IMG/VR virus record: IMGVR_UViG_3300000547_000002
Coordinates: 1 to 64,000 of that record
Origin: a virus
Direction: 5' to 3' (one strand)
DNA length: 64,000 bases
The position numbers and the translations under genes were made by a program. Every line of letters begins with the position of its first letter. Within the stretch, counting starts at the first letter, position 1. The notes under the pieces are model-generated. The model saw nothing but the letters and a program-made list of their open reading frames with translations. It had not been told where the DNA came from and made no database searches. Below are positions 5,572 to 32,406 of the stretch, piece after piece.

Positions 5572-6690
5572 ATGTCGCTTAGAATAAGAAGAGGTTTAAG
5601 CACCGATATACCTACCCCTGTTGAAGGCGAGTTATTATATACCACCGACGAAGGTAAATTATATGTAGGATACAACGATCCTATAGAGGGAGAAGTAATA
5701 CCTAAATTAACGGGTGCTAGACTAACAGACGATGATACTCCTACACTATCGGCAGATCTAAATCTAGCAGGAAATAACATAGTTGGAACCGGTAATATTA
5801 ATATAGACGGTACTATAAATGCTACTGGTAATATTAATTTAGGCGACGAAGATAGCGACACAATTAATATAAACGGGCAAATCAATACATCATTAATTCC
5901 TACATCGACAAATTTGTATGACTTAGGTGATATTACAGCAAGATGGAGAAATGGATATTTTCAATCTCTTATAGCAAATAGTTACATAGAATCTTCCGAC
6001 TTTGTTGTAGGTAATTCTATTGTATCTAGTGATAGCACCGTTATCTATGATAATTTATCTAACAGTATCAACATAGAATCAATCACTGCAAATATCGTAG
6101 AAGGCAATTTGATAGGAAATGTCTATAATGAAAATTCTAGTTTAATTATAGATAACGAAGAGGGTTCATTTAATACTCCGTCTCTAAAGATTATCGATGA
6201 AAAAATCGAAAGTAAAATTTCTGAGCCGTTAAGAGTTTTTTCCGATAAAGGTTTAAGGAATTTTGGTTCTTCCTCTCAGTCTATAACAGACTCAAACGCA
6301 TTTGTGCTTAATTCAATAGGCGATAGTGATACTAGTCCTTTAGCAATTGGAGATATAGTAGGAGCATTTGCTTACAGCGGCTATGACGGCTCCGATTATA
6401 TACCAACAAATGTAATACTCTCTGAAGTTGATTCCGATGCAAGCGGTTCTATACTACCTGGAAAGTTAGTCGTTTATTCTGCAGATGTTACAGGCAGTTT
6501 GAATCCTACAATGACCATAGATTCTGCGGGAACAATAAGTGGAGGCATTTTCAAAACCGGCACCTATAACAACACAACAGAAAGAGATAATCAAATACCT
6601 AATCCAGAAGCAGGAATGATTATCTTTCTAAACGATGTATCTCCAAAATTTCAAGGGTATGACGGAACACAGTGGGTTGATTTTAATTAG
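5572..6690 (+). CDS. Fibre-like virion structural protein
   Basis: The N-terminus (SLRIRRGLSTDIPTPVEGEL followed by LYTTDEGKLYVG) is the attachment-type sequence found at the start of many phage fibre and tropism proteins. The middle is rich in Asn, Ile, Gly and Ser with repeating beta-strand patterns (GNINIDGTINATGNINLG; LIPTSTNLYDLGDITARWRNGYF), typical of trimeric fibre shafts. The C-terminus ends with MIIFLNDVSPKFQGYDGTQWVDFN, a common fibre tip motif. At 372 residues it is short for a fibre. It has a late-type promoter box and a good ribosome-binding site. It ends four bases into the minus-strand oxygenase-like gene and marks the left edge of the accessory island. Confidence 0.75.
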   Translation: MSLRIRRGLSTDIPTPVEGELLYTTDEGKLYVGYNDPIEGEVIPKLTGARLTDDDTPTLSADLNLAGNNIVGTGNINIDGTINATGNINLGDEDSDTININGQINTSLIPTSTNLYDLGDITARWRNGYFQSLIANSYIESSDFVVGNSIVSSDSTVIYDNLSNSINIESITANIVEGNLIGNVYNENSSLIIDNEEGSFNTPSLKIIDEKIESKISEPLRVFSDKGLRNFGSSSQSITDSNAFVLNSIGDSDTSPLAIGDIVGAFAYSGYDGSDYIPTNVILSEVDSDASGSILPGKLVVYSADVTGSLNPTMTIDSAGTISGGIFKTGTYNNTTERDNQIPNPEAGMIIFLNDVSPKFQGYDGTQWVDFN

Positions 6691-7502
6691 TAAGATTGTA
6701 GATTATCAATTCCTAGTGTCTTTCTAAAACTTTCTGTAAAAACACAATCTATACGAACACCATATTCCTGCTCTTTAGAAGATTCTCCGCCGTGCCAGTC
6801 TTGATCGTTCCAGAAGGCAGCATGACAATTTAGATAATACTTATTTTGTTCGTCAGGATCCCATATATAGAATCCTCTTTTGGTTCTAGGCCTAATATGT
6901 ATAAATTCATTTCTATGGTTAGAATAATAGTCATTTTCAAAAACACCATTTTTCGCATCTAAATCTCTATGTTCAAATGCCTTACCATTATGATCGCAAT
7001 GAAAGATAATGACACGACCGATCTGTTCTATAATATCATTTTCTATAAGATTATATACCCACTGAACTAGTCCAGGAAAATATTTGGATTCTTCAGTTGG
7101 CTTTCTTTTAGCATTTCGTTCATTCCAGTCGCCTTCTTCCCATATAAAATAATAAACATATGGATCGTTAGCACCTAATGTAGTTTTTAAATATCTTGTA
7201 AAGATATTTCTTTGTTTATAATCGCCAAAATCCTCAGGTAAAATTTTATCACCTTCAATCTTGATAGGATTATCATCTGGTAAATCTTGGTATTCTTCCC
7301 AAGCCTTATAGATAGGCTTCCAGTCTAAAATGTAACTCGCGTGTTTCCATTCAAATCCAGGTTTCATCCAAGTTCCTTCTTTTGCATAATCTCTAGCAAG
7401 AGCCATGCCTTTAGAAATTTCGGGATGTAAATTTTTAAAACCTTCGATGTCTAAAAAAGGATCTAAGTTTAGATATTTTTGTCCGCCTATTCCTCTTATC
7501 AT
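6687..7502 (-). CDS. 2OG-Fe(II) oxygenase-like protein (271 aa)
   Basis: The C-terminal half contains an HxD-type site (HRD at residues 178-180), a second histidine (H237 in WHGGE) and an arginine (R250 in GVRIDCVF). This is the order of the iron and 2-oxoglutarate ligands in the double-stranded beta-helix oxygenase fold. Such enzymes hydroxylate proteins, sugars or nucleobases; the substrate here is unknown. ATG 7502 has AGGAG six bases upstream (7509-7513) and a late-like AATAAATA box at 7525-7532. It is the only gene of its transcription unit and its tail overlaps the plus-strand fibre gene by four bases. Similar unassigned proteins occur in marine phages. The family call is by motif order only. 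Confidence 0.6.
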   Translation of the reverse strand: MIRGIGGQKYLNLDPFLDIEGFKNLHPEISKGMALARDYAKEGTWMKPGFEWKHASYILDWKPIYKAWEEYQDLPDDNPIKIEGDKILPEDFGDYKQRNIFTRYLKTTLGANDPYVYYFIWEEGDWNERNAKRKPTEESKYFPGLVQWVYNLIENDIIEQIGRVIIFHCDHNGKAFEHRDLDAKNGVFENDYYSNHRNEFIHIRPRTKRGFYIWDPDEQNKYYLNCHAAFWNDQDWHGGESSKEQEYGVRIDCVFTESFRKTLGIDNLQSY

Positions 7503-7524
7503 TCAAAACTCCTAATCTTAAAAA

Positions 7525-7545: not shown

Positions 7546-8241
7546 ATGTCTAATGGCTTTGAATATTATTATAATAATGTTCCCGGAAAGGGTCTGTGTA
7601 GAAACAATTTGATATACACAAGTTTGATTAGCAAAGACAGAAAAACATTTTGTCAATGGTATTACAATGACAAAACTTATCACAGTGGGATGAATAAGGT
7701 TGTTGACCCTACCCTTATGTTGGAAAAATGGCAGAGAGAAAAACATTATCTTTTGCTAATGCATGAAAACTTCCCCCAGCACATTCCTGAAATTTTAGAT
7801 ATCGATGATAAAAATCAAAAAATTTATTTAAGAATAGACGGAGATGATTTTTGGGAAAGAGCAAAAACAGACATAAACAGATACAACGACGTTCTTCCTA
7901 ATTGGGAAGAACAGATGCTAGAAATAATAGAAAGTCATAAAAAATTAAATTTCTATAAAATTTCTATGCACCCTTCTAGTTATTTTGTAGTAGACGGAAA
8001 ATTAAAAAGTATTAATTATTTTTTTTGTTATAATTTCAGTGAAGAGACGATAAGATTTTCAGATGTTTTTAGTCACATAAGCGACGACAGATTAGAAAAA
8101 CTTTATCCTCTCATGAAAAAAATGAATATTGATTATAATAACCAAGAACCCTTAGAAAAAATACAGAATTTAGCATTTGAGACATTTAAATTTAATTTTC
8201 CTCATAGCACTATGGAAAAAGCAAAGAGAATCTATGTTTAG
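7546..8241 (+). CDS. Kinase-fold-like protein, catalytic residues degenerate (231 aa)
   Basis: The protein shows the order of a small aminoglycoside-phosphotransferase or RIO-like kinase: a glutamate helix near residue 65, a hinge-like IYLRIDGD at 93-100, then a catalytic-loop-like KISMHPSSYFVVDGKLKS at 138-155 followed by INYFF. In active kinases the loop reads HxD and the last motif IDF; here the first Asp is missing and the second is Asn. A paralogue at 9913-10584 has IDFF. It may therefore bind nucleotide or substrate without phosphorylating. I recognise similar sequences from uncultured marine phages without known function. No ribosome-binding site is seen, so a leaderless start is possible. 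Confidence 0.6.
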   Translation: MSNGFEYYYNNVPGKGLCRNNLIYTSLISKDRKTFCQWYYNDKTYHSGMNKVVDPTLMLEKWQREKHYLLLMHENFPQHIPEILDIDDKNQKIYLRIDGDDFWERAKTDINRYNDVLPNWEEQMLEIIESHKKLNFYKISMHPSSYFVVDGKLKSINYFFCYNFSEETIRFSDVFSHISDDRLEKLYPLMKKMNIDYNNQEPLEKIQNLAFETFKFNFPHSTMEKAKRIYV

Positions 8242-8800
8242 TATTAAAGAATGGAATCCAGATTTGGATTTATCTTTTTTTTACAAAGAATGCAAAAAAA
8301 GAGGGCACATTAATAACTCCTCAAAAAAACAAATGATAGATTGTTTCAAAAATGAAAAACACTGGAATGTTTGGATTTTGTATCACTATAACACCCCTAT
8401 AGGCAGCGTAGCAGCACACTCATTCGACGATGTTATGGGAGAGAATTCATATAGAATTTTGACTAGAACGTGTGCTTTATCAAAATATGCGCCTATTACA
8501 GGCTTATTAACCAAAAATAAAATGATATTAGAACACCAACACTTTACGGCGCAATTTTTTTTAGAAACTTGCGTTAAATGGTGCAAATCAGACAGATTAT
8601 ATTCTACATCGAACTATAGCGATTGCGCAAGTCAAAAAATTGTGAATAGACTTTATTTTCCTACACTTGCAAAAAAAAATTTAGTAGAATTTGTTAAAAC
8701 ACAGAATTATAGAGGACTACCACAAAACATTTGGAAAATAAATCATGAAGCTTTTTTGGCAGATCTTAATCGTTATCCGCGATGGAAATTAAATAATTAA
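8234..8800 (+). CDS. GNAT-like acyltransferase candidate (188 aa)
   Basis: The start is the ATG at 8234, which overlaps the upstream stop by eight bases; the longer frame starting at 8177 lies within the kinase-like gene. The core reads WNVWILYHYNTPIGSVAAHSF followed by a conserved central block (YRILTRTCAL, LTKNKMILEHQHFTAQFFLE), and SNYSDCASQKIVNRLYF near the C-terminus. The strand-turn-strand beginning and the later helix resemble N-acyltransferase (GNAT) folds, but the acetyl-CoA loop is not clear. The 3-prime end overlaps the opposing SDR-like gene by 35 bases, the longest convergent overlap in the window. Confidence 0.5.
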   Translation: MFSIKEWNPDLDLSFFYKECKKRGHINNSSKKQMIDCFKNEKHWNVWILYHYNTPIGSVAAHSFDDVMGENSYRILTRTCALSKYAPITGLLTKNKMILEHQHFTAQFFLETCVKWCKSDRLYSTSNYSDCASQKIVNRLYFPTLAKKNLVEFVKTQNYRGLPQNIWKINHEAFLADLNRYPRWKLNN

Positions 8801-9380
8801 CTTTTTCGCATTTTTTGTCTAAATCTTTGTCTTTACCTCCTAAAGATTCAATAACAAACGAAGTAAGTTTTAAATTAAATTCTACATTCCAAAAATAAGG
8901 ATTAGATAACCAAATATCAATGATTGATACTATGGATTCTAAGGGTATTTCTTCGTCCGAATTATATCTATCGTCTCCTATTGTTGACTTAATAAAAGAA
9001 AAGTCAAGGTATAATATTTTTGCTACATTATATTGGGTAGGAATAGAAGATAGTAAATTGCAAAATTCATAAAGTTCTGATTTGATAAATGATAATTCAG
9101 GTTTTATATTTGTGTAATTCCGTATTACGCCTCCTGATACAATTATAAATGAAACATGTTTATAAATCTTCTCTAAAATTTCTTTCTGATATTCTTTATA
9201 ACATAGATTATTAAAAACAATATCAGCATCTTTGCAAATTGAAACTATCTCATCGAAATTGCGTTCTATATCATAACCACGAGTTCTAGAAATACCAATA
9301 ACTTCAAAATTTTGATTAACGAAATAATCTTTTACTGCCTTCCCTATACCGAAAGTGTCTCCTATAACCACTGCCTTCAT
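8766..9380 (-). CDS. SDR-like NAD(P)-binding protein (204 aa)
   Basis: The start is placed at ATG 9380, which overlaps the upstream stop as ATGA; a longer frame to 9428 is inside the neighbouring gene. The N-terminus MKAVVIGDTFGIGKAV (nucleotide loop GDTFGIGK at residues 7-14) followed by VIGISRTRGYDI is a Rossmann fold of the short-chain dehydrogenase type, with the Arg after the second strand suggesting NADP. A SGG motif at about residue 83 lies where SDRs carry the catalytic Ser, but the usual YxxxK is not evident, so it may be an atypical or inactive member. It is last in a four-gene minus-strand operon. Substrate unknown. Confidence 0.6.
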   Translation of the reverse strand: MKAVVIGDTFGIGKAVKDYFVNQNFEVIGISRTRGYDIERNFDEIVSICKDADIVFNNLCYKEYQKEILEKIYKHVSFIIVSGGVIRNYTNIKPELSFIKSELYEFCNLLSSIPTQYNVAKILYLDFSFIKSTIGDDRYNSDEEIPLESIVSIIDIWLSNPYFWNVEFNLKLTSFVIESLGGKDKDLDKKCEKVNYLISIADND

Positions 9381-9925
9381 AGCTTTACACCTAAGCAATG
9401 ATAAAGGAAAAAGGGCTGCAAACCACAATTTGCTGCAGAATGATAATTTCTATAATCTTTCCACTTAACGATTGTTCCTATGTCGCAAGCAGAGACATCT
9501 TTACCTTCTAACGCTAAAAAATGAGATAAATTTTTTTCGCCTAGAAAAATAGAATATCTCATTAATTTACCTTCTTGGAGCCATTGTTCATGCTTATCGT
9601 CAACGTCCCAATGCCAAGGTGCTGTTTTACCTGGCATAATTAAACTCACCCAGTCTCTTTTCGGATTTATATTTACATATTCGGCAAATTGATTTGTAAA
9701 TTGAGCATTATAATGTTCATTTGGGTAATAGTTATACCACTCTATGCTGGATAAAAAATATCCTGCGTTTATCCAATTATCGATCATTTCTTGATAGTAA
9801 TTTTTAATTTTGGTATTTTTAGATTTTGAAGCATCTAGTATAGAATTGAAATCTAAACGCTTAGGCTGAGTTTTTTGACATTCACCAACAAGATCTTTGC
9901 ATTTTTTTCTAATTATTTTATACAT
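9377..9925 (-). CDS. Aspartyl/asparaginyl beta-hydroxylase-like oxygenase (182 aa)
   Basis: The start is ATG 9925, 13 bases inside the preceding gene; a longer frame reaching 9970 overlaps further and is not preferred. HWD at residues 105-107 (in TAPWHWDVDD), R123, and H162 (in YRNYHSAANCG) have the spacing of the Fe(II) and 2-oxoglutarate ligands of the Asp/Asn hydroxylase branch of the oxygenase superfamily. The end of the protein is the terminal strand FFLYHCLG. It is one of four proteins with this type of motif in the island. Substrate unknown; the call rests on motifs rather than whole-domain similarity. Confidence 0.6.
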   Translation of the reverse strand: MYKIIRKKCKDLVGECQKTQPKRLDFNSILDASKSKNTKIKNYYQEMIDNWINAGYFLSSIEWYNYYPNEHYNAQFTNQFAEYVNINPKRDWVSLIMPGKTAPWHWDVDDKHEQWLQEGKLMRYSIFLGEKNLSHFLALEGKDVSACDIGTIVKWKDYRNYHSAANCGLQPFFLYHCLGVKL

Positions 9926-10584
9926 GATTCCAAATCGTCCAATTTCAAATTTAGTTTTTGGTTGTGCCATTTATCATTTAACAATAAAAATTTATAGATT
10001 TCAAAAAAGTTATAATTGTTGCGTTCACTAAAAGGTTCTGTACAAATCCATTTTTTACTATCTTGCGAAAGTATCTCATCTACTATTGTTTTGTTGACCA
10101 ATGGCGTATTAAGACCAAAACAACTAAAAAAGTCTATAGTTTTTATTACATTATTTCTGTTTTCAAAAAAACAATGTGAATGCATAGAAATTTTTCCTAA
10201 GCCAATTCGATATAAATCAGACAAGACATTTTGTGCTTTGTTCATGAAGTAAACCTGCTTTTCTGGTTGATGATATATAACATGATTGATTAAATCTCCA
10301 TCGTAGCGAATGAAAATCTTTTTTGATTTTTTATCGATTTCTAAAATATCTGGACACCACTGATAGTTTCTCAATTTGTCTAAGTAATACAATTCATTTT
10401 CAAAAAAATAATCAAGAGTTTTTTGACTTAAATTATTTTTTGAATAGGCATTCTTTTTACAAAAGTGATAACAAAATATTTTGTTATCCGGACTTATTAA
10501 TGGCTCGTAAGTGTGTTGCGATACGCAACTCCTTCCTTGATTATCCAGTTTGTATAGATATTTCCAATTTTTAACAGATATCAA
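9913..10584 (-). CDS. Kinase-fold-like protein, paralogue of the gene at 7546 (223 aa)
   Basis: The frame opens at a TTG at 10584 and no ATG or GTG is available nearby; the N-terminal residues align with those of the paralogue, so a TTG (or other non-ATG) start is likely. Shared landmarks are LISPDNKIFC near residue 30, a glutamate helix near 63, hinge-like IFIRYDGD at 90-97, and a loop KISMHSHCFF at 131-140 followed by IKTIDFF. The DFG-like aspartate is kept here, but the HxD catalytic aspartate is absent as in the paralogue. It sits between two oxygenase-like genes in a tight minus-strand operon, overlapping the upstream one by 14 bases. Activity uncertain. Confidence 0.6.
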   Translation of the reverse strand: MISVKNWKYLYKLDNQGRSCVSQHTYEPLISPDNKIFCYHFCKKNAYSKNNLSQKTLDYFFENELYYLDKLRNYQWCPDILEIDKKSKKIFIRYDGDLINHVIYHQPEKQVYFMNKAQNVLSDLYRIGLGKISMHSHCFFENRNNVIKTIDFFSCFGLNTPLVNKTIVDEILSQDSKKWICTEPFSERNNYNFFEIYKFLLLNDKWHNQKLNLKLDDLESCIK

Positions 10585-11233
10585 TTTTAAATTCTCTAGG
10601 TGTAATATACTCTAAATCAATCAAATTATTTTCTTCGAGTTCAAAACTACAACCTTTTTCTTCGATCTTGAAATTAGTTAATAGCCCTTTTTTGTTAGCA
10701 TAATTTAACCAAGAACTAAGGGTATTATCAAATTTATATCTAGGATTAGAACCAGCTAAACGTATTTTAACGGTTTTTGATTTGTTAAGTTGATTATTTT
10801 GTAAAAGTTTTCTTACGACTAGTTGATATCTAGAAGTTTCACCGCAAGAAATAGCTGTATGAACTTTACTCGTATCCATTTCATACCAGATAGCATCTGC
10901 ATAAGTAGGATATATTACATTATCATCTAGGTCTAATAAGTACCCTCCGTCGCCTGCAAGATTAATATGAAATCTATCATCTATGTCTGCATGTTGTGTG
11001 TAACAACGCATTGATTCAAGAATTATCAGTCGTGCTTCGCCTATCGGAAAATCTAATGTCGAAAGTATGTTACCTAACGGAGTATCTTTGACTTCTTCTT
11101 TTAAAGACCACTCGTCGTAAAAAAAATTTCCAGTAGGGAAATTGAGCACATTTTTCATTTGGTCGAAATGGTAAATTTGTGACTGAGAATCCTCTAGGAG
11201 TTTTTTATCTATAGAATGCAACGGTGCTAGCAT
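10571..11233 (-). CDS. Aspartyl/asparaginyl beta-hydroxylase-like oxygenase (220 aa)
   Basis: Residues 81-83 read HAD, followed by DDRFHINLAG with H89, then WYEMDTSKVHTAISCG with H125, and R135 in SRYQLVVR. This is the full ligand pattern of the Asp/Asn hydroxylase family, including the RxHxxL stretch and the H-T/V-x-x-N/S-C-G motif, so it is the clearest of the four oxygenase candidates. Residues 145-220 are an extra C-terminal part I cannot assign. It is first in the minus-strand block 11233-8766. A TAAATA box lies only five bases before its ATG and there is no clear Shine-Dalgarno site, so it may be leaderless. Confidence 0.7.
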   Translation of the reverse strand: MLAPLHSIDKKLLEDSQSQIYHFDQMKNVLNFPTGNFFYDEWSLKEEVKDTPLGNILSTLDFPIGEARLIILESMRCYTQHADIDDRFHINLAGDGGYLLDLDDNVIYPTYADAIWYEMDTSKVHTAISCGETSRYQLVVRKLLQNNQLNKSKTVKIRLAGSNPRYKFDNTLSSWLNYANKKGLLTNFKIEEKGCSFELEENNLIDLEYITPREFKIDIC

Positions 11234-11245: not shown

Positions 11246-11286
11246 AAGATCTATAACTTACATATAATTTATTGGTAAGTAATTTT

Positions 11287-12024
11287 ATGCAACCTTATAA
11301 CCTACTTGAAGTAGATGGTGTAAAAATACCTTTTTCACATAATTGGACTAACATAGGAATAAGTTTAAGTGGCGGAGCAGATAGTGCATTACTGCTATAT
11401 ATCCTAAGTAATTATTTTACATGCAACATACACGTTATCACCCAAATAAGATGTTGGAAAACAAGACCCTGGCAAGAATACCATAGTTTACAAGTTTTTG
11501 AGTGGTTTCAAACTAATTTTCCAAAAAAAAATTTTACAAGGCATGAAGGTTTCATTCCGCCCGACTTAGAATGGGGGAGAATCGGACCTACAATAACGGA
11601 TGAGTACGGAAAACTAAAAAGCGGAAATCAAATTATATTGCGATCCCATAACGAGTATATCTGTCACAAAGAAAAAATCAACGCATGGTTTGCAGCAGTT
11701 AATCGTAACCCTAATATTAAATTAGACGGAGCCTTAAAAGACAGAGACGATGGACACATACTTCCCATTTTTAATCATATGAACACGGTTATTTGCCATC
11801 CGTTTATTAAAACACGAAAGGATTGGATTATACAACAATATTATAATTTTGATATTTTAGATCTGTTAGATCTAACAAGAAGTTGCGAAGGAGATAAAAT
11901 CGACTATCCTGAAATTTTTGGTGATTTAGACTTTACTACTTATATTCCAGGACAATATGTGCCTGAGTGCGGAAAATGTTTCTGGTGCAATGAACGTGAA
12001 TGGGCATTGAATCGTGTTAAATAA
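11287..12024 (+). CDS. QueC-like PP-loop ATP pyrophosphatase (245 aa)
   Basis: The start is ATG 11287; a TTG at 11272 is disregarded. The PP-loop signature SGGADS at residues 28-33 binds ATP pyrophosphate. The C-terminus carries C200 (in RSCEG), then C228, C231 and C234 (in CGKCFWCNERE), matching the four-cysteine zinc site of QueC, the 7-cyano-7-deazaguanine synthase, which converts a carboxylate to a nitrile through an amide. The middle is divergent from housekeeping QueC, so it could instead activate another carboxylate. No other queuosine or deazaguanine gene (QueD, QueE, GCH I) is recognised nearby. It starts a three-gene plus-strand operon with two radical SAM genes and overlaps the next by 11 bases. 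Confidence 0.7.
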   Translation: MQPYNLLEVDGVKIPFSHNWTNIGISLSGGADSALLLYILSNYFTCNIHVITQIRCWKTRPWQEYHSLQVFEWFQTNFPKKNFTRHEGFIPPDLEWGRIGPTITDEYGKLKSGNQIILRSHNEYICHKEKINAWFAAVNRNPNIKLDGALKDRDDGHILPIFNHMNTVICHPFIKTRKDWIIQQYYNFDILDLLDLTRSCEGDKIDYPEIFGDLDFTTYIPGQYVPECGKCFWCNEREWALNRVK

Positions 12025-22680: not shown

Positions 22681-22907
22681 AAATTATAACCTTCGGAGAC
22701 AGTTGGGCAGTCGGACATGGATTAGGAATAGGCGAAAACAACTTTACAGATTTTTTAAGCTCTGCTCTAAATTGCGATAATAAAAATTTTGGAGTAAGTG
22801 GCGCTAGCTTGGGTCATATTTTTCGCGATTTTACTAGAGAGATAAAACTAATTAACGGACACAAACTTATAGCTAACCTGTTATTGGAAAAATATGAGAA
22901 ATTGTAA
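22677..22907 (+). CDS. Internally deleted SGNH hydrolase remnant (76 aa)
   Basis: The first 50 residues are the front of an SGNH hydrolase: MKIITFGDSWAVGHGLG with the catalytic Ser in GDSW, then NFGVSGASLGHIFRDF as the Gly block. The last 20 (NGHKLIANLLLEKYEKL) resemble the end of such enzymes, where GHxLIAxxL follows the catalytic His. The roughly 100 residues normally between, including the Asn block and the catalytic Asp, are absent, with the frame kept. It is probably non-functional, yet both ends still overlap their neighbours by 4 and 14 bases. Confidence 0.55.
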   Translation: MKIITFGDSWAVGHGLGIGENNFTDFLSSALNCDNKNFGVSGASLGHIFRDFTREIKLINGHKLIANLLLEKYEKL

Positions 22908-25537: not shown

Positions 25538-26681
25538 AAATCCATACATCGACTCGTGCGAAAGTTCTACATTTTCAGTATTATTTGATTACTTTAATTG
25601 GCGCGACGATATACAATTAATACATGGGCTAATGAAATATCCTGAATGGAAGCCTAATGTAAATATCCTTAATTTTATAAAAAATCTAGAAGAGCTAAGA
25701 TACAATGCCAATTGTTATTTTGTTTTTGATGCTTCTACAGAAGGATTTTCACCTTTCAAAAACTTCTTCTTTCATAACCTATACGAATCATGTAGATTAC
25801 ATAATATTAAGCCTAACAAGATTATATTTGTTTCAACAAATATGAAAGATTTAACCAATATTGAAAGATATAATAAAGAAAATAGAATACAAGAAAGTAT
25901 AAGAGTTTTTCCTTTCTTAAGTTTCAAAAAAATGATTCAAGATTTGATAGAGGACAATTACGGCTTTAATTTTAACAGCAATTCTGCATTTGAATATTTC
26001 AAATCTGAATGTGACAGAAAATTTAGCGGAGATTTTGGATTAAGTTTAAGCAGAGTAAATCGATCACATAGAACTCTTGCTCATTATCTTCTACACTCTA
26101 CCAACCTAGACAGACATTTTAAATTAAGTCAAGATAGAATTTCTGAAGATGACATAAGATACACTGCACAACATTATTTGCTTGATAAAAATTTTTTAAA
26201 ATGGTGTTCTACTCTACCAAAGGTTGTCGACACAGAAGATTTTGAAACTAATCATGCTTTATCTATTAATAGTCATCTTCACAATTCAACTCTATTTCAG
26301 ATTGTAAATGAAACTCACGTAAAAAACTGGCAAAATACGAGTTTATTTTATTCAGAAAAAACATTTAGATCCATGGCTCACATGCAACCGTTCCTGATAT
26401 TTGGACAGCCAGGCTGTAATAGAAAATTAGAACAATTAGGTTTTAGACTTTTTAGAGAAGATTTTGATTACTCCTTTGATGATATTCAAGACACAAAAAA
26501 ACGTTACCTTGCAATAATAGATACTATTAGACAGGTAGTTAAACAACTGAACGAGATGAATAGAGACGAACAAATAAAATGGAGATTTAGGAGAGAAGAA
26601 ACACTCAAACACAATTTTGATTTAGTAATGGACATTAACTATTTTAGACAGGATTTTGAAAAACTGATAGAGGCATTATGA
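25527..26681 (+). CDS. Glycosyltransferase-like protein, related to the preceding gene (384 aa)
   Basis: The C-terminal part carries FQIVNETHV, FYSEKTFRSMAHMQPFLIFGQPG and LEQLGFRLFREDFDYSFDD, the same order of landmarks (E-T, SEK, PF-I, LGF, D-S-DD) as the protein upstream, though the sequences are divergent. The N-terminal 250 residues are not recognised. A GT-B-like or exostosin-like transferase is the best guess. It overlaps the next gene by four bases (ATGA) and lies in the seven-gene plus operon. Confidence 0.5.
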   Translation: MIIKNPYIDSCESSTFSVLFDYFNWRDDIQLIHGLMKYPEWKPNVNILNFIKNLEELRYNANCYFVFDASTEGFSPFKNFFFHNLYESCRLHNIKPNKIIFVSTNMKDLTNIERYNKENRIQESIRVFPFLSFKKMIQDLIEDNYGFNFNSNSAFEYFKSECDRKFSGDFGLSLSRVNRSHRTLAHYLLHSTNLDRHFKLSQDRISEDDIRYTAQHYLLDKNFLKWCSTLPKVVDTEDFETNHALSINSHLHNSTLFQIVNETHVKNWQNTSLFYSEKTFRSMAHMQPFLIFGQPGCNRKLEQLGFRLFREDFDYSFDDIQDTKKRYLAIIDTIRQVVKQLNEMNRDEQIKWRFRREETLKHNFDLVMDINYFRQDFEKLIEAL

Positions 26682-27523
26682 AAAGATACAAAAGATTTTT
26701 TGCTTTCGGATGTTCTTTTACTCATTATAAATGGGCGACATGGGCGAATATTCTAGCATACGAATTAGATTGCGAATTTTTTAATTTGGGGAAAAGCGGT
26801 GCAGGGAACAGTTTTATCGCTAATCAAATTTCTCAAGCGGATGCATATTTCAATTTTACACAAGAAGATTTAGTTGTAGTAAGTTGGACTAATATCTCAC
26901 GCGAGGATAGATATAGAGACACAGGATGGATCACGCCAGGTAATATTTACTCGCAACATGATTATGATGAAAACTTTGTCTCTAATTACGCAAACGATAC
27001 CCATTTTGCATTGCGAGATTTTTCTTACATTCATTTTGTAAAAAACCTGTTAGAAAGTAAAACCAACTGGCATTTTTTACAAATGTGTAACATAGTTAAT
27101 GTAATTAATCAATGGGAATCAAACAGAAGATCGAACTCTGACATCAAAAATATTTCAGACTTATATACTGATTCTTTACAACACATTGTTCCGAGTTTTT
27201 ATGATGTTTTATGGAGAGGAAACATTGATAATAAATGGAAAAGTGATTGGAGAGAAATACACCCGAACTATTCTGACGGACATCCTACACCATTAGAGCA
27301 TTTGCAATATCTAGAAAGAACAATCATGCCCAACATATCAGAAAAAACAAAACAAGCTGTATATTCTTTACAAGAACAATGGCGAGATTATATTCGAGAA
27401 GGATATAAAAACACTTCTATAGATTGCGGGCTACACGACATGCCAAACAATTGGGTAGATAAAATGCATAATTTATTTAGACTGAGGGAAGAAAAGCCTA
27501 TTCCCAGTGTGCTGTATCATTGA
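26678..27523 (+). CDS. SGNH-family hydrolase (281 aa)
   Basis: The N-terminal block is FFAFGCSFTHYKWATW with S13, then NLGKSGAGNSFIAN as the Gly block, VVSWTNISREDRY (Asn block) and YSDGHPTPLEHL with the C-terminal Asp/His pair. All four SGNH landmarks are present, so it is likely active. An additional 60-residue C-terminal tail (from about residue 220) has no recognised motif. It closes the plus-strand operon and its last seven bases overlap the end of the opposing radical SAM gene. Substrate unknown. Confidence 0.72.
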   Translation: MKRYKRFFAFGCSFTHYKWATWANILAYELDCEFFNLGKSGAGNSFIANQISQADAYFNFTQEDLVVVSWTNISREDRYRDTGWITPGNIYSQHDYDENFVSNYANDTHFALRDFSYIHFVKNLLESKTNWHFLQMCNIVNVINQWESNRRSNSDIKNISDLYTDSLQHIVPSFYDVLWRGNIDNKWKSDWREIHPNYSDGHPTPLEHLQYLERTIMPNISEKTKQAVYSLQEQWRDYIREGYKNTSIDCGLHDMPNNWVDKMHNLFRLREEKPIPSVLYH

Positions 27524-28893
27524 CTCTGGCACAAGTCCCAAAAACTTTGCATTTCTGGAAATGTGTCAGTAAAATTTGAATTTCTTCTTCTATCGTGCTC
27601 GGAAAACCAAGCATAAAAGTTTTTTCTTGCTACTATTAACTTATCTTCTTCATAAAAAGTAGATGCCATGTAATCAACTACTCTTTTGAACTTTTCATAC
27701 TCTAGATCTGTGAATTTAGTTCTATCACTATTGTCTTGATTGCGTTTTATAAAATCTAAATGAGAATACATATAGAGCATGTATTCTTCTTTCGGTAGAA
27801 TATTCATGTCAAATATAGTAGGTTCTTTCAAATGAGGTGTATCAAAACGAATTCTTTGCCATTGTGTTTCGTTTTTGTTCGAATTGTATCTTTCGCGCCA
27901 TTCTAGTATCTTTTCTAGCAATAAATTAAAACTTGTAACGCAAAATATATTGAACGTAATCATAAATGTTACAGGCAATCCTGTATTTGAGAGATAATAG
28001 TCTAGATTACGCTCCCATAATTTGATATCTAGACCGTGACGAGCGTATTCTGCTCTTTCCCCCCAGGTATCAATTGAAGTATATAATTTAAAACTTTTAA
28101 TTGCGTTTATAGAACGCAGATAACTGATCCTTTCTACTAGACGTTCTACGAGTTTGGGTTTGACCCCAAGATTTGAGTTAATTTCTATCTGTATATGCGG
28201 TTTCGGATCTTCCTCCAGTTTATCAAACAAATCCCATGTACTTTTATGCATCAAAGGCTCGCCGCCTGTTATTCGCAGTATGTTAAGAGTCTTTGAAACT
28301 TCGGGCCACCATTCCCACCATGCTTTTACATATGGATTTTCTTCTTCTCTGTGATAGACTTTGAACCAATCTATGTCCTGTCTATGATCTGTAGCAGTAT
28401 CATAAGGTCCATGTTCGTCAATTTCTTTCCAATACCTAGAACTTGCTTTAGGATGACAATAGCCACACTTGAAGTTACACTCATTTGAGAAAGAAATTTC
28501 AATATACTCCGGATTTACGTTGTATTCTGCACCGCCTTGTTTTATTTCTTCCAATCTTTCTGGTGTATATATTGAAGCAGTTTTGATATGACGATCGGAA
28601 ACATAGTCTTTGCCCATTGCTTCTATTTTCCAGCAGTAGGAACATCCTGCAGGCTGCTGTCCTTTCATCATAAATTCTCGTTCCTGCTTTTTTTGACGAG
28701 TATTATGAAGTGCAGATGGGTTGTTTTCAAGTTCTTCCAACGGAATAGGATGCGGAGCAGGATGATAGCAAGAGTGAGTTTCGCCTGTTTGTAGATAAAT
28801 CGTGGTATGATGCCACTTTGCCATACAGAAAGTAGGAGAAATTTCTCTATCTGTATGAGGAATAATCTGTTTTATCTCTTCAAGTTCGCTCAT
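27517..28893 (-). CDS. Radical SAM protein with N-terminal twitch domain (458 aa)
   Basis: The N-terminal cysteines are C23 (FCMAKW), C42 (SCYHP), C84 and C87 (GCSYCW). The core motif is C139-NFK-C143-GY-C146, with ITGGEPLM near residue 208. It is therefore the third member of the N-terminal-twitch group in the island, and the only one without a C-terminal-SPASM partner beside it. It is last in the minus-strand operon 32406-27517. It overlaps the upstream GT-like gene as ATGA. Confidence 0.87.
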   Translation of the reverse strand: MSELEEIKQIIPHTDREISPTFCMAKWHHTTIYLQTGETHSCYHPAPHPIPLEELENNPSALHNTRQKKQEREFMMKGQQPAGCSYCWKIEAMGKDYVSDRHIKTASIYTPERLEEIKQGGAEYNVNPEYIEISFSNECNFKCGYCHPKASSRYWKEIDEHGPYDTATDHRQDIDWFKVYHREEENPYVKAWWEWWPEVSKTLNILRITGGEPLMHKSTWDLFDKLEEDPKPHIQIEINSNLGVKPKLVERLVERISYLRSINAIKSFKLYTSIDTWGERAEYARHGLDIKLWERNLDYYLSNTGLPVTFMITFNIFCVTSFNLLLEKILEWRERYNSNKNETQWQRIRFDTPHLKEPTIFDMNILPKEEYMLYMYSHLDFIKRNQDNSDRTKFTDLEYEKFKRVVDYMASTFYEEDKLIVARKNFYAWFSEHDRRRNSNFTDTFPEMQSFWDLCQSQ

Positions 28894-29792
28894 TTCTGCC
28901 TTTTAATAATTCTTGGCGTGTTTCTATAGGTTGATTTGAAGAATCTACTTCCTGCTTCGTCTAATAGTGCAATCTCAATACCTAATTTGCTTGTAAGACC
29001 GTGTTCTAATTCGTTAACTTCTTCTATTACAGCATTTTCGTCTTTGGTTTTGTGATTGTCGTTCCAATATTCTGTAAGATACTCAAAATCTCTAACTTGT
29101 TTATATTCCCAGTCTGTGCAGTTTGTAAGATAACAGCCTTCTCTTGCTCCGTATATGCTCCATAAACCATTTTCTACGTCTGCTCCTACAGAACACCATA
29201 TTTTAAGACGTTCTAGATTTTGCCACCATACTGTTTTAATGTCATTGACAGGGGATCCTTGGTCAAGACTCATTTTTACACCTTCTCTAAATCCTGCTCT
29301 CCAGGCTTGAAAAGGAGATCCGTTCGTGTATGATGTGGAATAGTTGTCATTAAATTGATAATACTTGTCATCGAAACAGAATTCTACGAGAGATCGTTCG
29401 TCTGCGTCATTTGCTGCTTCGTGAGTTTTCATATTTTGAACAAAATCTTTGTTCCATAGTTTTAAACCGCCATTTCCATACATTAACCCATTTACATAGA
29501 CTCGTCCGCACCAAGAAAAAACGTGATCGCGTGTTAATCCAAGCTCGTCAATGTCAATAACTACGTTTAGAAATGATTGATCTACAATATTGTCCGCATC
29601 TACGGTTACAAAATAGTCTGTGTCCGAAATATCAGCACAGGCTTTGTGAGCAGCGTCAGATCCCTTTACACCGTGAACTCTTTTTGCCCACGGAATTTTT
29701 TGACATAGGTCAGCATAATTCTTTTCTGCGTTAGGTTCGTCAAAAGAAAGAAATATCACATCCTGTTCTGCTACAACTATTTTGTTTGACAC
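28890..29792 (-). CDS. GT-A-like glycosyltransferase candidate (300 aa)
   Basis: The start is GTG 29792, seven bases after AAAGGA. DVIFLSFDEPNAEKNY near the N-terminus, a TVDADNIV segment with DAD at 65-67, and the block FQAWRAGFREGVKM ... ERLKIWCSVG ... GLWSIYGAREG match the paralogue at 19177-19851. This type is widespread in T4-like marine phages and carries a GT-A-like fold. Donor and acceptor unknown. It sits upstream of a twitch-type radical SAM gene, as its paralogue sits upstream of another radical SAM gene. Confidence 0.6.
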   Translation of the reverse strand: MSNKIVVAEQDVIFLSFDEPNAEKNYADLCQKIPWAKRVHGVKGSDAAHKACADISDTDYFVTVDADNIVDQSFLNVVIDIDELGLTRDHVFSWCGRVYVNGLMYGNGGLKLWNKDFVQNMKTHEAANDADERSLVEFCFDDKYYQFNDNYSTSYTNGSPFQAWRAGFREGVKMSLDQGSPVNDIKTVWWQNLERLKIWCSVGADVENGLWSIYGAREGCYLTNCTDWEYKQVRDFEYLTEYWNDNHKTKDENAVIEEVNELEHGLTSKLGIEIALLDEAGSRFFKSTYRNTPRIIKRQK

Positions 29793-30364
29793 TGGGTTAT
29801 CCTTTGAAAGCTATATTTTTCGAACATTTTTGCTGTAAAAACGGAAATGTCCTGTATTTCTTCTTCAAATTTCATATCGAAAGGTACTACAGCATAGTTA
29901 TCTCTTACTACTCGTGAAAAATCAACAGAAAGAGTTTTGTAAAGCACATTAGGATCGTGTTTTGCTGTGACGGAAAATGTAATTTCTCTGTTTAGTCGAA
30001 CTCCCTGCTGTTTTAGGTTTTGATTAAGAGACTTTCCTAATAGAATCTTCCAACAGGAATTTGGTATGTCCTGTAAAACCGTTATGTCAGCGTTGTCGTC
30101 GTTGTTTTCTGGTAATTCGTATATAAAGTCATTTACAGAAGCACCATCAAACTGCATTTCATGAACATTTACAAGTGCCAGCTGTTTCTTTTTAGGATCA
30201 TACTCTACTCTGTAGTTTCTTCGTCTTTCTTTTCCTTGTAGAATGCCTACAACTTCTTCTAAATCAACAGCTATATCGTGATGATTCGCACTTGGTTTAG
30301 GAGATATTCCTATGATTTTGCCTGTGTCTTCTTCAAATCTCACATACATTATGTCTGAAGACAT
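29777..30364 (-). CDS. Phage protein of unknown function (195 aa)
   Basis: I do not recognise a family. The protein begins MYVRFEEDTGKIIGISP after a short leader (residues 1-6), and is rich in beta-strand-like segments with no cysteine cluster, membrane segment or metal site. The start at 30364 has AAGGAAG about 11 bases upstream. It overlaps both neighbours by 16 bases inside a glycosyltransferase operon, so it may be an accessory or scaffolding part of that pathway, or an unrelated virion-type protein. Confidence 0.6.
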   Translation of the reverse strand: MSSDIMYVRFEEDTGKIIGISPKPSANHHDIAVDLEEVVGILQGKERRRNYRVEYDPKKKQLALVNVHEMQFDGASVNDFIYELPENNDDNADITVLQDIPNSCWKILLGKSLNQNLKQQGVRLNREITFSVTAKHDPNVLYKTLSVDFSRVVRDNYAVVPFDMKFEEEIQDISVFTAKMFEKYSFQRITQCQTK

Positions 30365-31179
30365 TTTTCAAACTTCCTTATCTTGTCTTCTGTTACAAAA
30401 TCGTTTTCTGTATAATGAAATACACCGTTTTGATGAAAATTTCCAATTTTTAGCGTTGCTTGTTCTGTAAGATACACACCTACTTTATCCTGCCAGCGGG
30501 AAGTTGGCATTTTCCAGTTCTGTATTTGTGATTTCATATGAATAACGGAAACAATGTCGCTTGTTTGGTTGGATATTTCTGTGTCGCAATCCGTAATTTT
30601 AGCAGCAATTGCTGTAGTGATGTCCATTGACGGTTCTTTAGGGTAGAAATTCGAACAGAAATGCCCGTAAAACAATTCCCAGTTGTTAGATATTAATTCT
30701 ACCCATTCAAAAAACTGTTTTGCTTTGTTGGATTTTTTAAAATAGTGCAAGCAGTTGTAGAAGTTTGGTAAATCATTAGCAGTAAATGCTTTTCTGTAAT
30801 AATCAGACTCTACAAGTTCTTGTCTATACGTAAAAACTCTTGTAGGAAAATATACTTCGTAATTTTTTAATAGATTCCAAGCATAATTTAAATTTTGTAA
30901 CACAAGAACATCAGAATCTATAACGATAGTTTCATCATAGGGCGTTGCGTGATAGATTTTCCATCTATTTTGAGTTTTTAATCTGGTTTCGTCCGATTTA
31001 TACCACGGAATTTCTACGATCTTATCAAAAACGTGTGTGTATTGCTGGGGGATAGTGTTATTTGTTATTATACTAACGGGTAAATCGTTGCCAGATGCCT
31101 TCAAACTTAAAGCAGCAAGGTAAGATTGCTGTATATATTCTTCTCCGTCGGCAAAAACGCAGTATCCTTTGCTATTCAT
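30349..31179 (-). CDS. GT8-like glycosyltransferase (276 aa)
   Basis: The start is ATG 31179, which overlaps the previous stop as ATGA; an in-frame GTG at 31188 is less likely. The motif TPYDETIVIDSDVLVL contains DSD at residues 88-90, the metal-binding DxD of GT8 or related GT-A enzymes. FYNCLHYFKKSNKAKQFF later is the acceptor-side segment typical of this group. The next gene upstream is a close paralogue with the same SPYDETxxxDSD motif. Sugar donor unknown. Confidence 0.68.
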   Translation of the reverse strand: MNSKGYCVFADGEEYIQQSYLAALSLKASGNDLPVSIITNNTIPQQYTHVFDKIVEIPWYKSDETRLKTQNRWKIYHATPYDETIVIDSDVLVLQNLNYAWNLLKNYEVYFPTRVFTYRQELVESDYYRKAFTANDLPNFYNCLHYFKKSNKAKQFFEWVELISNNWELFYGHFCSNFYPKEPSMDITTAIAAKITDCDTEISNQTSDIVSVIHMKSQIQNWKMPTSRWQDKVGVYLTEQATLKIGNFHQNGVFHYTENDFVTEDKIRKFEKCLQT

Positions 31180-32060
31180 ACAATACACCTATTTAAACTA
31201 AACTTGTTCATACAGTGTAAATTAGAATTTTTTAGAGATAATAGTGTGTATTCGCCTGTATATTTGGGCTTTTCAAGCAAAATTGTTAATTTTTCTCTGT
31301 CAATATCCCATAAAATGCTTTTATCTGTGATGTAATAGAGTTTTCCAGGCATTGATTTTGCAAAATCTCCTTGTTCATAGCCGTTCATAATGTGAATTGC
31401 TATAGAAAATGCATAATCATTGCGAAAATACGGGGTGTTAATCTGAAAAATTGAGCAATAATGATTCCAATTTTCCTGTATGTGCGCTACTAAATCAAAA
31501 AATATGCGGTTTTGCTCCGTTTTTCTAAAGAAAACAGCGGTTGCCCAGTAAAAATCTACGGAAGTTTCCGAAACTCTTTCAAAAACATCGCCTCTATCCA
31601 AGTCTAAAAGATCTACACAGTCTTTATAAACAAGAAAATCGTGCGATTGCTCAAAACATTTCTTCCAAAATCCATTAGAAATTACAACATCACTGTCTAA
31701 TAGCAGTGTTTCGTCATAAGGAGATGCTCGAAAAGCAGTTGATCGTAGGTTGTTTTTCCAATCCAACTTTTTTTCTACTAGAGTTCCGTCGTAAAATTTC
31801 TTAACAGCGTGATTTTCTGACGGAGAATATACTGTGTTTTCTTTTAGATCTTTTTCTTTCCATACAACAGAAATTACTTGATCAAAAACAGATTCGTAAT
31901 CAGGATATTCGTGTTCGAGATAAGATAGGCTATCTGTAACTATTGACGTAGGAAGATCAAGATATTTGCGCACTCTCTTAGCAAGAAAATAGGCCTGTTT
32001 GATGTAATCAATCTGAGAATTATTTCTAGCATAAACAAGTATGCCTTGAGTTTTATTCAT
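31176..32060 (-). CDS. GT8-like glycosyltransferase (294 aa)
   Basis: The start is ATG 32060, eight bases inside the preceding gene; a TTG at 32066 is not needed. SPYDETLLLDSDVVIS with DSD at residues 122-124 is the catalytic metal motif, followed by FYWATAVFFRKTEQNRIFF. Together with the paralogue downstream it forms a tandem pair, suggesting two successive or alternative glycosyl transfers. No membrane segment. Confidence 0.68.
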   Translation of the reverse strand: MNKTQGILVYARNNSQIDYIKQAYFLAKRVRKYLDLPTSIVTDSLSYLEHEYPDYESVFDQVISVVWKEKDLKENTVYSPSENHAVKKFYDGTLVEKKLDWKNNLRSTAFRASPYDETLLLDSDVVISNGFWKKCFEQSHDFLVYKDCVDLLDLDRGDVFERVSETSVDFYWATAVFFRKTEQNRIFFDLVAHIQENWNHYCSIFQINTPYFRNDYAFSIAIHIMNGYEQGDFAKSMPGKLYYITDKSILWDIDREKLTILLEKPKYTGEYTLLSLKNSNLHCMNKFSLNRCIV

Positions 32061-32406
32061 AATCAACTAATTTTGACACTGAACGTTTTTTTAGTAGCTC
32101 TTTGTATTCTGCATGATAGGTATTAGCAGCAGAAAAATATCTATCTGTTATATCAGAAAGAAACTCATCAAGATCAGATACCATTACGGGTGTTTCGTTG
32201 TCGTCAATTAACACAATGTCTTCGTCATTGCCTTTTTCTACAAGCATATTAACGAAAGTTAGTAACTGCTTATTGACCGTAAATTGCCCGCCGTTAAAAT
32301 AATGAACAATGTTTTCTTTAAATTGCTCTCTTAACATTCTTTTTTGATTGTTCAGAGTGACCATGTAATTAGAAAATTCAAGTGCTTTTTCCAATCTTTC
32401 GTCCAT
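32053..32406 (-). CDS. Small conserved phage protein (117 aa)
   Basis: The start is ATG 32406, six bases after AGGAG; a TTG at 32457 belongs to the promoter. The protein is helical and acidic, with LEFSNYMVTLNNQKRMLREQF near the N-terminus and FLSDITDRYFSAANTYH in the middle. The pattern is familiar from marine T4-like phages. Function unknown. It is the first gene of the minus-strand operon that carries the two GT8-like genes and the third twitch radical SAM gene, and it has the best promoter of the island. Confidence 0.7.
   Translation of the reverse strand: MDERLEKALEFSNYMVTLNNQKRMLREQFKENIVHYFNGGQFTVNKQLLTFVNMLVEKGNDEDIVLIDDNETPVMVSDLDEFLSDITDRYFSAANTYHAEYKELLKKRSVSKLVDYE

Follow-up and report, generated by a model that had tools for sequence, protein, structure and literature searches.

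A radical SAM-rich gene island beside the tail-fibre genes of a virus with T4-like tail genes, and its possible part in fibre decoration

Why would a virus keep seven radical S-adenosylmethionine (SAM) genes, together with sugar-related enzymes, next to the genes of its tail fibres? Here we address this question for the IMG/VR virus record IMGVR_UViG_3300000547_000002 (79,180 bp), of which bases 1-64000 were analysed (the window). Positions 6687-32457 of the window hold an island of 31 genes (g01 to g31) that is 98.8% coding and has a G+C content of 33.2%, against 41.7% and 38.8% on its two flanks. A preliminary description made from the letters of the DNA had called this an accessory island and supposed that it builds a glycan or modifies the fibres.

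Judged from its relatives, the island is a unit wherever it is present, with shared gene order and strands, and we regard it as very probable that its genes work together. It is likely that they make and transfer a sugar-like group. For the identity and destination of that group, we lean towards the reading that the group is an unusual activated sugar (or sugar-amino acid) and that glycosyltransferases (GTs) linked to the fibre genes attach it to the phage's own tail fibres.

Radical SAM genes of the island

Seven genes carry the motif CxxxCxxC (window coordinates and strand here and below):

12014-13285, plus: g09, N-terminal-twitch radical SAM protein (NF033640; Pfam, NCBIfam)
13278-14162, plus: g10, radical SAM protein (Pfam)
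14146-15144, minus: g11, radical SAM protein (Pfam)
15141-16550, minus: g12, N-terminal-twitch radical SAM protein (NF033640), highly conserved core gene (Pfam, NCBIfam)
17129-18139, minus: g14, radical SAM protein (Pfam)
18117-19184, minus: g15, radical SAM protein with a weak C-terminal SPASM match below the cut-off (Pfam)
27517-28893, minus: g26, N-terminal-twitch radical SAM protein (NF033640; Pfam, NCBIfam)

All seven, first picked out by the motif, exceed the PF04055 gathering score of 29.5 bits (35.5-43.8 bits), which rules out a chance clustering of cysteines. Three of them, g09, g12 and g26, match nearly the full profile of NF033640, the twitch domain-containing radical SAM family with an N-terminal twitch, at 327.7, 384.6 and 316.0 bits (curated NCBIfam cut-off 170 bits); g10, g14 and g15 reach 23.9, 37.0 and 40.8 bits and g11 has no match among those listed. 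By these scores, g10, g11, g14 and g15 are radical SAM proteins outside that family.

The genes are kept intact. Of 541 full-length homologues drawn from the seven families, 540 retain CxxxCxxC (g09 55/55, g10 83/84, g11 80/80, g14 67/67, g15 76/76, g26 44/44), and the ratio of nonsynonymous to synonymous change (dN/dS) is about 0.03-0.11 for gene pairs with a computable correction, synonymous sites being near saturation. On these ratios the radical SAM genes are under purifying selection, and decay or truncation, which the preliminary description had named as grounds for doubting a joint pathway, is ruled out. In an alignment of 12 g12 rows reaching down to 60% identity (A1), mean column identity is 76%.

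Radical SAM genes number 7 in the window and 10, 7, 6 and 16 in the records G001, G002, G004 and G005; a 17th candidate open reading frame (ORF) of G005 is nested within another and lacks CxxxCxxC. The 16 genes of G005 (L130-L133, 47.6-86 kb) lie in or beside the island and outnumber the 12 given for a T4-like marine genome (PMC5332604; of this and the other papers cited by PMC number only a part of the text was accessible, and our statements refer to that part).

Cultured phages hold distant matches to these families: g12 finds four Vibrio phages only, at 22-23% identity, g26 two Vibrio phages at 28%, and g14 nothing among 50,697 phage records. One of the nearest listed relatives, Vibrio phage K566 (L134, 155-180 kb), carries several radical SAM genes in a row, some of them annotated, with 22-28% identity to g12 or g26, and could serve as a laboratory model. 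A collection of 84,980 species genomes was scanned for g12 only, with two peptide patterns, a scope that takes in neither distant cellular relatives nor the other families, and gave a single match, on a 3.5-kb contig (L117, PUNK01000001.1) in a Thermoplasmata metagenome-assembled genome. Its genes, g15, g12, a radical SAM gene and g10, follow the order of the island; identity is 88% for g12 and 81% for g10, and the contig is most likely a virus fragment misbinned with an archaeon. As the sole match is a likely misbinned virus piece, recent transfer to or from cells was discarded as an explanation.

Fibre-side block, late promoters and an accessory core

The fibre genes and the island genes next to them are as follows:

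5572-6690, plus: fC, fibre-like gene at the left border (label of the preliminary description and sequence character; no PHROG match)
28890-29792, minus: g27, GT-like with DxD (motif; no family match)
29777-30364, minus: g28, fast-evolving protein (alignment A7, 25-69% identity to the window)
30349-31188, minus: g29, predicted glycosyltransferase, Mannosyl_trans3 (Pfam, 23.6 bits, cut-off 22)
31176-32066, minus: g30, GT-like with DxD (motif; no family match)
32053-32457, minus: g31, small protein encoded between fD and the GT-like genes (position)
32461-34632, minus: fD, tail fibre/adhesin, directly upstream of g31 on the same strand (phrog_11439, phrog_2056)
34654-34661, minus: TATAAATA, T4-type late promoter of fD
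34680-37176, minus: fE and fF, fibre genes upstream of fD (fF phrog_19602; fE without PHROG match)

The gene fD, earlier called gp38-like, indeed belongs to phage tail-fibre families. No match to g30 was found in cultured-phage records. In most relatives g28 stands between the GT-like g27 and g29 yet evolves faster (25-36% identity in 11 of 13 rows); it is possibly an acceptor or adaptor.

Searches of viral contigs confirmed 286 relatives of g12, 247 of g09 and 375 of g26, of which the 80 closest to the window by rank were kept in each case, and 32 of g21; several contigs recur between searches. The kept g12 relatives are 74-88% identical over the best segment. As a viral contig query g14 gave one locus; tblastn places it in many loci. 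At least 9 kb is visible on both sides in 36 of the 80 g09 loci and 29 of the 80 g26 loci; when these were dereplicated at a nucleotide identity of about 95%, 25 and 21 remained. In the commonest order the fibres are followed by g31, g30, g29, g28, g27, g26, a slot, g18/g17, g16, g15, g14, g13, g12 and g11; beyond g11 come g10, g09 and g08 on the opposite strand and then g07 to g01.

Within 9 kb of g09, the genes g01, g02, g07, g10 and g12 are found in all 25 dereplicated loci, g15 in 22, g08 in 20, and g13 and g14 in 18 each. Near g26, all 21 loci have g27, g29, g30, g31, fD and fF, and g28 and g16 occur in 20, g14 in 17, g24 in 15, g18 in 14, g25 in 13 and g21 in 4. A further radical SAM match is present in 80/80 g09 loci, and in 77 of these g10 is the next match after g09; g09 and g12 lie on opposite strands in 77/77 loci holding both, and fibre and g27-g31 matches in g26 loci share the strand of g26 in 481 of 481 cases. 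L040, L071-L076 and others have a rearranged order with most of the set kept. In G001, G004 and G027 the island lies between an ATPase/HNH side and a fibre/baseplate side, and G005 has the same fibre side as the window, its other border being beyond the region read. On a 357,559-bp contig (L301) that carries the same island, the fibres and g31 to g11 all share one strand. The suggestion that the block occurs as a unit is thus borne out, and shared order and strands, the retained motif and purifying selection together favour a joint pathway where the island is present. Genes occurring singly and unlinked, which would speak against such a pathway, are not the pattern of the core, though a cassette in a cultured phage, described below, occurs without the core.

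Searches that start from island genes cannot show phages that lack the island, and were repeated with two neighbours, fF and the left-border ATPase gene. fF yielded 191 relatives and the ATPase at least 592, and for each the 80 closest to the window were again kept. Of these, 37 fF loci and 20 ATPase loci extend at least 9.5 kb downstream, which dereplication reduced to 27 and 15; the ATPase-anchored count covers 10 kb and misses island genes farther away. Downstream of fF, g31, g30, g29 and g27 are present in 26 of the 27 loci, fD in 25, g28 in 21, g26 in 18 (within 10 kb), g16 in 10 and any radical SAM gene in 21. Downstream of the ATPase, w4614 occurs in all 15 loci, g01 and g02 in 3 and g09 in 1, and some of the loci without listed island genes hold other CxxxCxxC ORFs. 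Five loci distinct by their ATPase gene (L415, L449, L458, L459, L461) show a compact state: fibres, g31, g30, g29, g27, g16, two ORFs in about 1 kb, w4614, an HNH gene and the ATPase; none of the ORFs of 100 residues or more in the locus has CxxxCxxC. Of the two ORFs between g16 and the left border in these compact relatives, one is conserved and has about 222 codons, and the other has about 106.

These fF- and ATPase-anchored results indicate that the GT-like block is the steady partner of the fibres, and that the radical SAM core and the slot are, on the loci compared, accessory and inserted where g16 would otherwise adjoin the left border. The word "accessory" was therefore well chosen, and an island frame kept throughout the lineage is ruled out by the relatives without a core.

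Late-promoter motifs tie the fibre-side block to the fibres in a second way. The motif was chosen after the upstream sequences had been viewed, with the T4 late-promoter consensus used in choosing it. GATAAATA lies 33 bp upstream of fC, AATAAATA 30 bp before fF and TATAAATA 29 bp before fD; the last is depleted in the window (1 site, 7.35 expected), and its strand reads on into g31 to g26. From fD through g31, g30, g29, g28, g27 and g26 the genes follow one another on one strand with a 3-bp gap or overlaps. The full 79,180-bp record has 12 ATAAATA sites, nine of them 15-60 bp before a same-strand listed start, where 0.2 are expected, and all nine preceded by A, G or T; when 21 permutations of the 7-mer were counted likewise, 10 of the 39 sites of AATAAAT, which overlaps the motif, fell in the same place. 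The ATAAATA sites of the record cluster just before structural and border genes. In relatives, the fD homologue is preceded by the motif in 12 of the 47 examined; where it is missing, transcription of fD may start ahead of a fibre gene farther upstream, for example fF. Within the island of the window the exact motif precedes the start of g01 only; four related records carry 3, 3, 1 and 6 sites inside their islands.

The window has T4-like tail structure genes. Its baseplate-wedge protein (59375-62839) is nearest to those of SCTP-2, Phosso, Atu_ph07 and PA5oct (34-38% identity) in the 15 best of 68 matching cultured-phage records, and its ATPase (1668-2750) is nearest to PA5oct-type phages among the matches listed (50% identity). 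No close cultured relative of the lineage was found in the cultured-phage collection searched. By these protein comparisons, the record represents a lineage of large aquatic phages. A minus-strand ORF of 5182 residues (43837-59385) adjoins the baseplate-wedge gene, its N-terminal 1100 residues being 43-48% identical in long relatives. The 357-kb relative carries tRNA genes for Met, Leu and Arg near its left end (16545-16863); the window has none.

Predicted chemistry of the core and the slot

The other island genes, with the basis of each label, are these:

6687-7502, minus: g01, HxD...H...R protein, putative 2-oxoglutarate (2OG) oxygenase (motif)
7546-8241, plus: g02, conserved protein, kinase-like by eye (alignment A9; no family over the cut-off)
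8177-8800, plus: g03, GNAT-like by eye (homologues in several loci; no family over the cut-off)
8766-9428, minus: g04, short-chain dehydrogenase-like (adh_short match below the cut-off)
9377-9970, minus: g05, HxD protein, possible 2OG oxygenase (motif; low-identity homologues)
9913-10584, minus: g06, relative of g02 by eye (homologues; no Pfam or PHROG family match)
10571-11233, minus: g07, aspartyl/asparaginyl beta-hydroxylase-type 2OG oxygenase (profile, invariant residues)
11272-12024, plus: g08, PP-loop ATPase, QueC-like (motifs, phrog_1550)
16543-17139, minus: g13, predicted class I SAM methyltransferase fold (AF2 model)
19177-19851, minus: g16, GT-A fold protein, probable glycosyltransferase (AF2 model)
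19870-20646, minus: g17, SGNH-like, slot or border gene (GCS motif)
20639-21862, minus: g18, UDP-glucose/GDP-mannose dehydrogenase family, UGD (Pfam, phrog_9148)
22093-22680, plus: g19, predicted half-size DegT/StrS aminotransferase (Pfam, residues)
22677-22907, plus: g20, SGNH fragment of 76 residues (GDS motif; homologues in L217, L218)
22894-23862, plus: g21, StrB1-type amidinotransferase (profile, residues)
23859-24356, plus: g22, HxD...H...R protein, putative 2OG oxygenase, part of the g19-g21 cassette (motif)
24356-25537, plus: g23, GT-B-like by eye, cassette gene (no family over the cut-off)
25527-26681, plus: g24, GT-B-like by eye, cassette gene (no family match)
26678-27523, plus: g25, SGNH-like, cassette gene (GCS motif)

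The kinase-like, GNAT-like and GT-B-like labels, and that of "sigma factor" for a gene of L114, are presumptive.

Among the core genes, g07 is the best placed of the oxygenase-like proteins: its profile reaches the beta-hydroxylase structure 7v4f (E 1.1e-17), and H81, D83, H125 and R135 are invariant in 15 rows. The preliminary description had four genes with HxD...H...R; HxD is indeed present in g01, g05, g07 and g22, and a fitting later H...R in all of these but g05. No family match above the cut-off was obtained for g01, g05 or g22 (for g01 none at all in Pfam or PHROG), and when Pfam was run on the homologues of ten unnamed genes only g07 was placed, just below the cut-off. In g08, called QueC-like from the start, the PP-loop SGGADSA and a C-terminal CxxCxxC are invariant in 16 rows; its family matches are weak (phrog_1550, E 2e-6), and neither g08 nor g28 has a match in the PDB.

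Sequence searches of the PDB gave no placement for g13 and g16, and both were placed by predicted fold only. The g13 model (pLDDT 90) finds nicotianamine synthase 3fpg as its best Foldseek match (E 1.5e-10), followed by methyltransferases. The g16 model (pLDDT 93) is GT-A by Foldseek with low TM-scores and aligns with B4GALNT1 at a VIA-align Z of 11.3 (135 residues, rmsd 2.8), IspD-type cytidylyltransferases scoring nearly as high; D57 and D59 of its DxD are invariant in 18 rows. From the model, g16 is a probable GT-A glycosyltransferase, a class for which IspD-type cytidylyltransferases score alike. The count of at least six DxD or GT-B-like genes made earlier accordingly divides: g16 has the fold and g29 the Pfam match, g27 and g30 have DxD with no family, and g23 and g24 keep a label given by eye. 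The nucleotide-sugar dehydrogenase is firmly g18 (phrog_9148, E 3.3e-93), and the three SGNH genes stand, with GCS in g17 and g25 and GDS in g20, though g20 has only 76 residues. With its GDS kept and homologues in L217 and L218, g20 does not look like an obviously decaying remnant.

Between g26 and g16 the content of the slot differs across the 67 loci in which both ends are visible. In 32 of them it holds a g12-like radical SAM gene with g25, g24 and g18, and in 7 it holds g24 and g17; smaller sets include the g19-g21-g22-g23 cassette of the window. Of the 32 g21 loci, 30 have g19 as well. The DegT-like label of g19 is upheld by Pfam (DegT/DnrJ/EryC1/StrS, 46.4 bits, cut-off 19.8), though the protein has 195 residues; K108 and D84, which we take to be the PLP lysine and the aspartate of the DegT family, are invariant in 13 of 13 rows, a cyanophage included. 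It does not span the full DegT fold (195 residues against 360 profile positions), and all 30 homologues counted are similarly short. We therefore regard g19 as a half-size DegT aminotransferase whose activity is predicted from its residues.

For g21, a single sequence finds no Pfam match; its profile confirms the amidinotransferase suspected earlier, with StrB1, the inosamine-phosphate amidinotransferase (1bwd), as the best PDB match (E 8.7e-83 over residues 3-320), ahead of HsvA, AGAT and SxtG. H206, D208 and C312, presumably the catalytic triad, are invariant in 16 rows that include Campylobacter phage CP220. The protein is 60% identical in Synechococcus phage S-SCSM2R and 24-28% identical to the Campylobacter phage amidinotransferases. 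In streptomycin synthesis, a DegT-family aminotransferase (StsC) followed by an amidinotransferase (StrB1) gives rise to the guanidino groups. Because g19 and g21 resemble this pair, we infer by analogy that the cassette of the window may yield a guanidino-sugar.

Taken together, a pathway can be proposed. The core from g07 to g15, with up to six radical SAM proteins, a PP-loop ATPase, a methyltransferase fold and a beta-hydroxylase-type oxygenase, would build or tailor the building block, the starting material being a nucleotide sugar altered by radical C-H chemistry. The slot would set the final decoration, here transamination by g19 and then amidino transfer by g21 to give a guanidino group, and the fibre-linked transferases would add the sugar while the fibres are made. 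The radical SAM enzymes would act on the free sugar, which is more likely, or on the fibre polypeptide. A fibre surface of variable chemistry may benefit the phage in adhesion or protection.

Acceptor of the predicted sugar, and known systems

We place the acceptor on the phage's own fibre because of the steady link between GT-like genes and fibres, their common strand, the late promoter and the failure to find two flippase families. The alternative destination is the host surface, the lipopolysaccharide (LPS) or capsule of the infected cell being altered to exclude rival phages or to stop progeny from sticking to debris. UGD, GT and DegT genes are typical of O-antigen loci, and an accessory core with a swappable slot would suit host-specific antigens. 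GT-rich islands of pelagimyophages have been read as modifying the host O-chain (PMC7029224). Nevertheless, the GT-like block stays by the fibres even where the core is missing and shares their strand, g12 with its 76% mean identity is far more conserved than would be expected for a host-specific antigen gene, and the island proteins look soluble: none of the 31 has a convincing transmembrane segment, and the one hydrophobic window above the usual threshold (1.82, at residue 308 of g26) would lie in the middle of a soluble-type enzyme. The flippase GtrA (PF04138) was matched in 0 of 15 long relatives, which may be fragments, against 7 of 14 control genomes, and Polysacc_synt (PF01943) in 0 of 15 against 13 of 14, other flippase and polymerase families lying outside the search. 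On these 15 records a phage-encoded host-conversion module of the gtr or PF01943 type is rejected, and host-surface modification as a whole appears unlikely to us. A more improbable reading has the SPASM/twitch enzymes acting directly on the fibre polypeptide by cross-linking, epimerisation or hydroxylation, with sugars added to the modified residues. The twitch or SPASM architecture of g09, g12 and g26, the beta-hydroxylase-type g07, the position of g26 next to the fibres and the many peptide maturases among the weaker NCBIfam relatives, all far below the cut-off, are consistent with it. Those weak relatives also include the small-molecule enzymes BlsE and MoaA, however, and the number of radical SAM genes varies from 6 to 16 between records and falls to zero in the five compact relatives with similar fibres. 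Nor does the island hold a short precursor-peptide gene: it has three gaps of more than 20 bp, and only the largest (230 bp) contains ORFs, of 18 and 21 codons (listing minimum 15 codons). This result covers the island, a precursor elsewhere in the genome being beyond its scope; it rules out a ribosomally synthesized and post-translationally modified peptide (RiPP) locus with its precursor inside, and agrees with the preliminary description, which had argued against a plain RiPP locus.

Two further readings seem very improbable. A secreted small molecule directed at competitors or the host, for example a guanidino-aminocyclitol or glycopeptide, would account for an aminotransferase with a StrB1-type amidinotransferase, as in the streptomycin pathway, and for the 2OG oxygenase-like and methyltransferase-fold proteins; it fits poorly with several GT-like genes linked to fibres and with a g21 that occurs near g26 in only 4 of 21 representatives, and nothing resembling an exporter or resistance gene stood out in the island, though no dedicated search was made for either. 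Hypermodification of phage DNA bases with sugars or amidino groups, to which we give the least credence, is called to mind by a QueC-like g08 beside radical SAM genes, a combination that recalls deazaguanine pathways, and by Campylobacter phages, which have a similar module and altered DNA. The location among fibre genes argues against it, as does the thymidylate-synthase family, which includes base hydroxymethylases and is present in only 2 of 15 long records (DpdA and T4-type DNA glucosyltransferases were not part of the search).

Several observations weigh against decoration of the phage's own fibres. The two strongest are a cassette in S-SCSM2R and the loci that do without the core. The S-SCSM2R cassette of DegT, radical SAM, GT, 2OG oxygenase and amidinotransferase genes sits among genes not annotated as structural and has no island core, which also lends support to the host-surface alternative. 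No listed island gene lies within 10 kb in 11 of the 15 ATPase-anchored loci, and the fF loci L421 and L422 have none downstream; the core is not kept across the lineage, its role is optional, and fibre function therefore cannot depend on it. In G002 the arrangement differs: the genes of the g14 side lie towards the ATPase, and g26-g31 are absent from the region read. In 35 of 47 relatives, mostly the more distant ones, the 70 bp next to the fD homologue hold no motif, and in the window no late-promoter motif precedes the starts of g02 to g25. A host could supply the flippase and polymerase. Finally, g23, g24, g27 and g30 are putative glycosyltransferases, and glycosylation of the fibres is a prediction from the genes. 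Even so, the early suggestion of a glycan-building or fibre-modifying island is plausible and better supported than before, since GT-like genes stay by the fibre where radical SAM genes are absent.

If the island does decorate fibres, it would explain the radical SAM clusters of some phages, which have been in print since 2010 with their function left open (PMC2853527). It would give radical SAM enzymes the making of sugars for fibre-linked GTs, a role not yet shown for those of phages, and would provide a testable case of phages decorating their own fibres, with a bearing on receptor recognition. Relatives with and without the radical SAM core around the same fibre and glycosyltransferase genes offer a natural comparison, and the content of the slot should predict the sugar. 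Conserved families with at most distant matches in cultured phages are, moreover, a possible source of new radical chemistry. A wider picture, which we put forward tentatively and hold to be less than even, is that of a viral counterpart of the O-antigen locus on the virion: a fibre-locked GT set and an inserted radical SAM glycan factory with an exchangeable cassette, which in mostly uncultivated large aquatic phages would dress the fibres in non-host (guanidino-)sugars through new radical SAM sugar chemistry of the apparently virus-restricted g12, g09 and g26 families.

Our literature search found no paper describing this island or the function of phage radical SAM clusters, most subscription journals lying outside it, and the accessible text on the "moraphage" lineage (PMC12619734) makes no link to such clusters. 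Parts of the arrangement are already known: clusters of radical SAM and amidinotransferase genes in phages since 2010 (PMC2853527), many radical SAM genes in a marine T4-like virus since 2017 (PMC5332604) and radical SAM cassettes in fibre islands since 2020 (PMC7029224). What is new within the literature searched is the syntenic core; the constancy of the GT block beside the fibres, whether or not the core is there; the slot; a compact pairing of aminotransferase and amidinotransferase; and a late promoter that links g31-g26 to the fibre.

One close likeness in gene content is to the pelagimyophage host recognition cluster, which has VrlC and gp14 as its borders and unites tail fibres, glycosyltransferases, UGD and radical SAM cassettes in one island (PMC7029224), and the window, with tail fibres, GTs and radical SAM cassettes in one island of the structural region, has the same combination. 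That cluster is described as non-syntenic, whereas gene order here is maintained in the fibre-side block and also in the core of those loci that have one, and the baseplate and ATPase proteins of the window are closest to SCTP-2, Phosso, Atu_ph07 and PA5oct among the matches listed. Campylobacter phages CP220 and CPt10 carry an interchangeable cluster in which five radical SAM genes accompany a gene for a putative glycine amidinotransferase (Timms et al. 2010, PMC2853527); in CP220 two nucleotide-diphospho-sugar transferase-like genes come next. A baseplate-lysozyme gene lies about 3 kb away. H206, D208 and C312 of g21 are common to both systems; the amidinotransferases are otherwise only 24-28% identical, g12, g14 and g26 find no Campylobacter match by tblastn, and the accessible text does not mention a fibre-linked GT block. 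TARA_ERS488813_N000010, a T4-like marine genome with 12 radical SAM genes, is similar by description, its radical SAM genes being counted in the accessible text without arrangement or function (PMC5332604).

Farther afield, the streptomycin genes StsC and StrB1 offer the same pairing of a DegT-family aminotransferase with an amidinotransferase, and 1bwd is the best PDB match of the g21 profile; the difference lies in the half-size g19. Precedents for glycosylated virion parts exist as well. Mycobacteriophages glycosylate their capsid and tail tube (PMC12363180). The glycogene clusters of megaviruses combine nucleotide-sugar enzymes, a class I methyltransferase candidate and GTs (PMC10117803), and decorate virion fibrils with sugars that differ by clade. 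Those are eukaryotic viruses, and the accessible text mentions no radical SAM enzymes; we claim no homology, and see in them a precedent for the fibre decoration proposed here.

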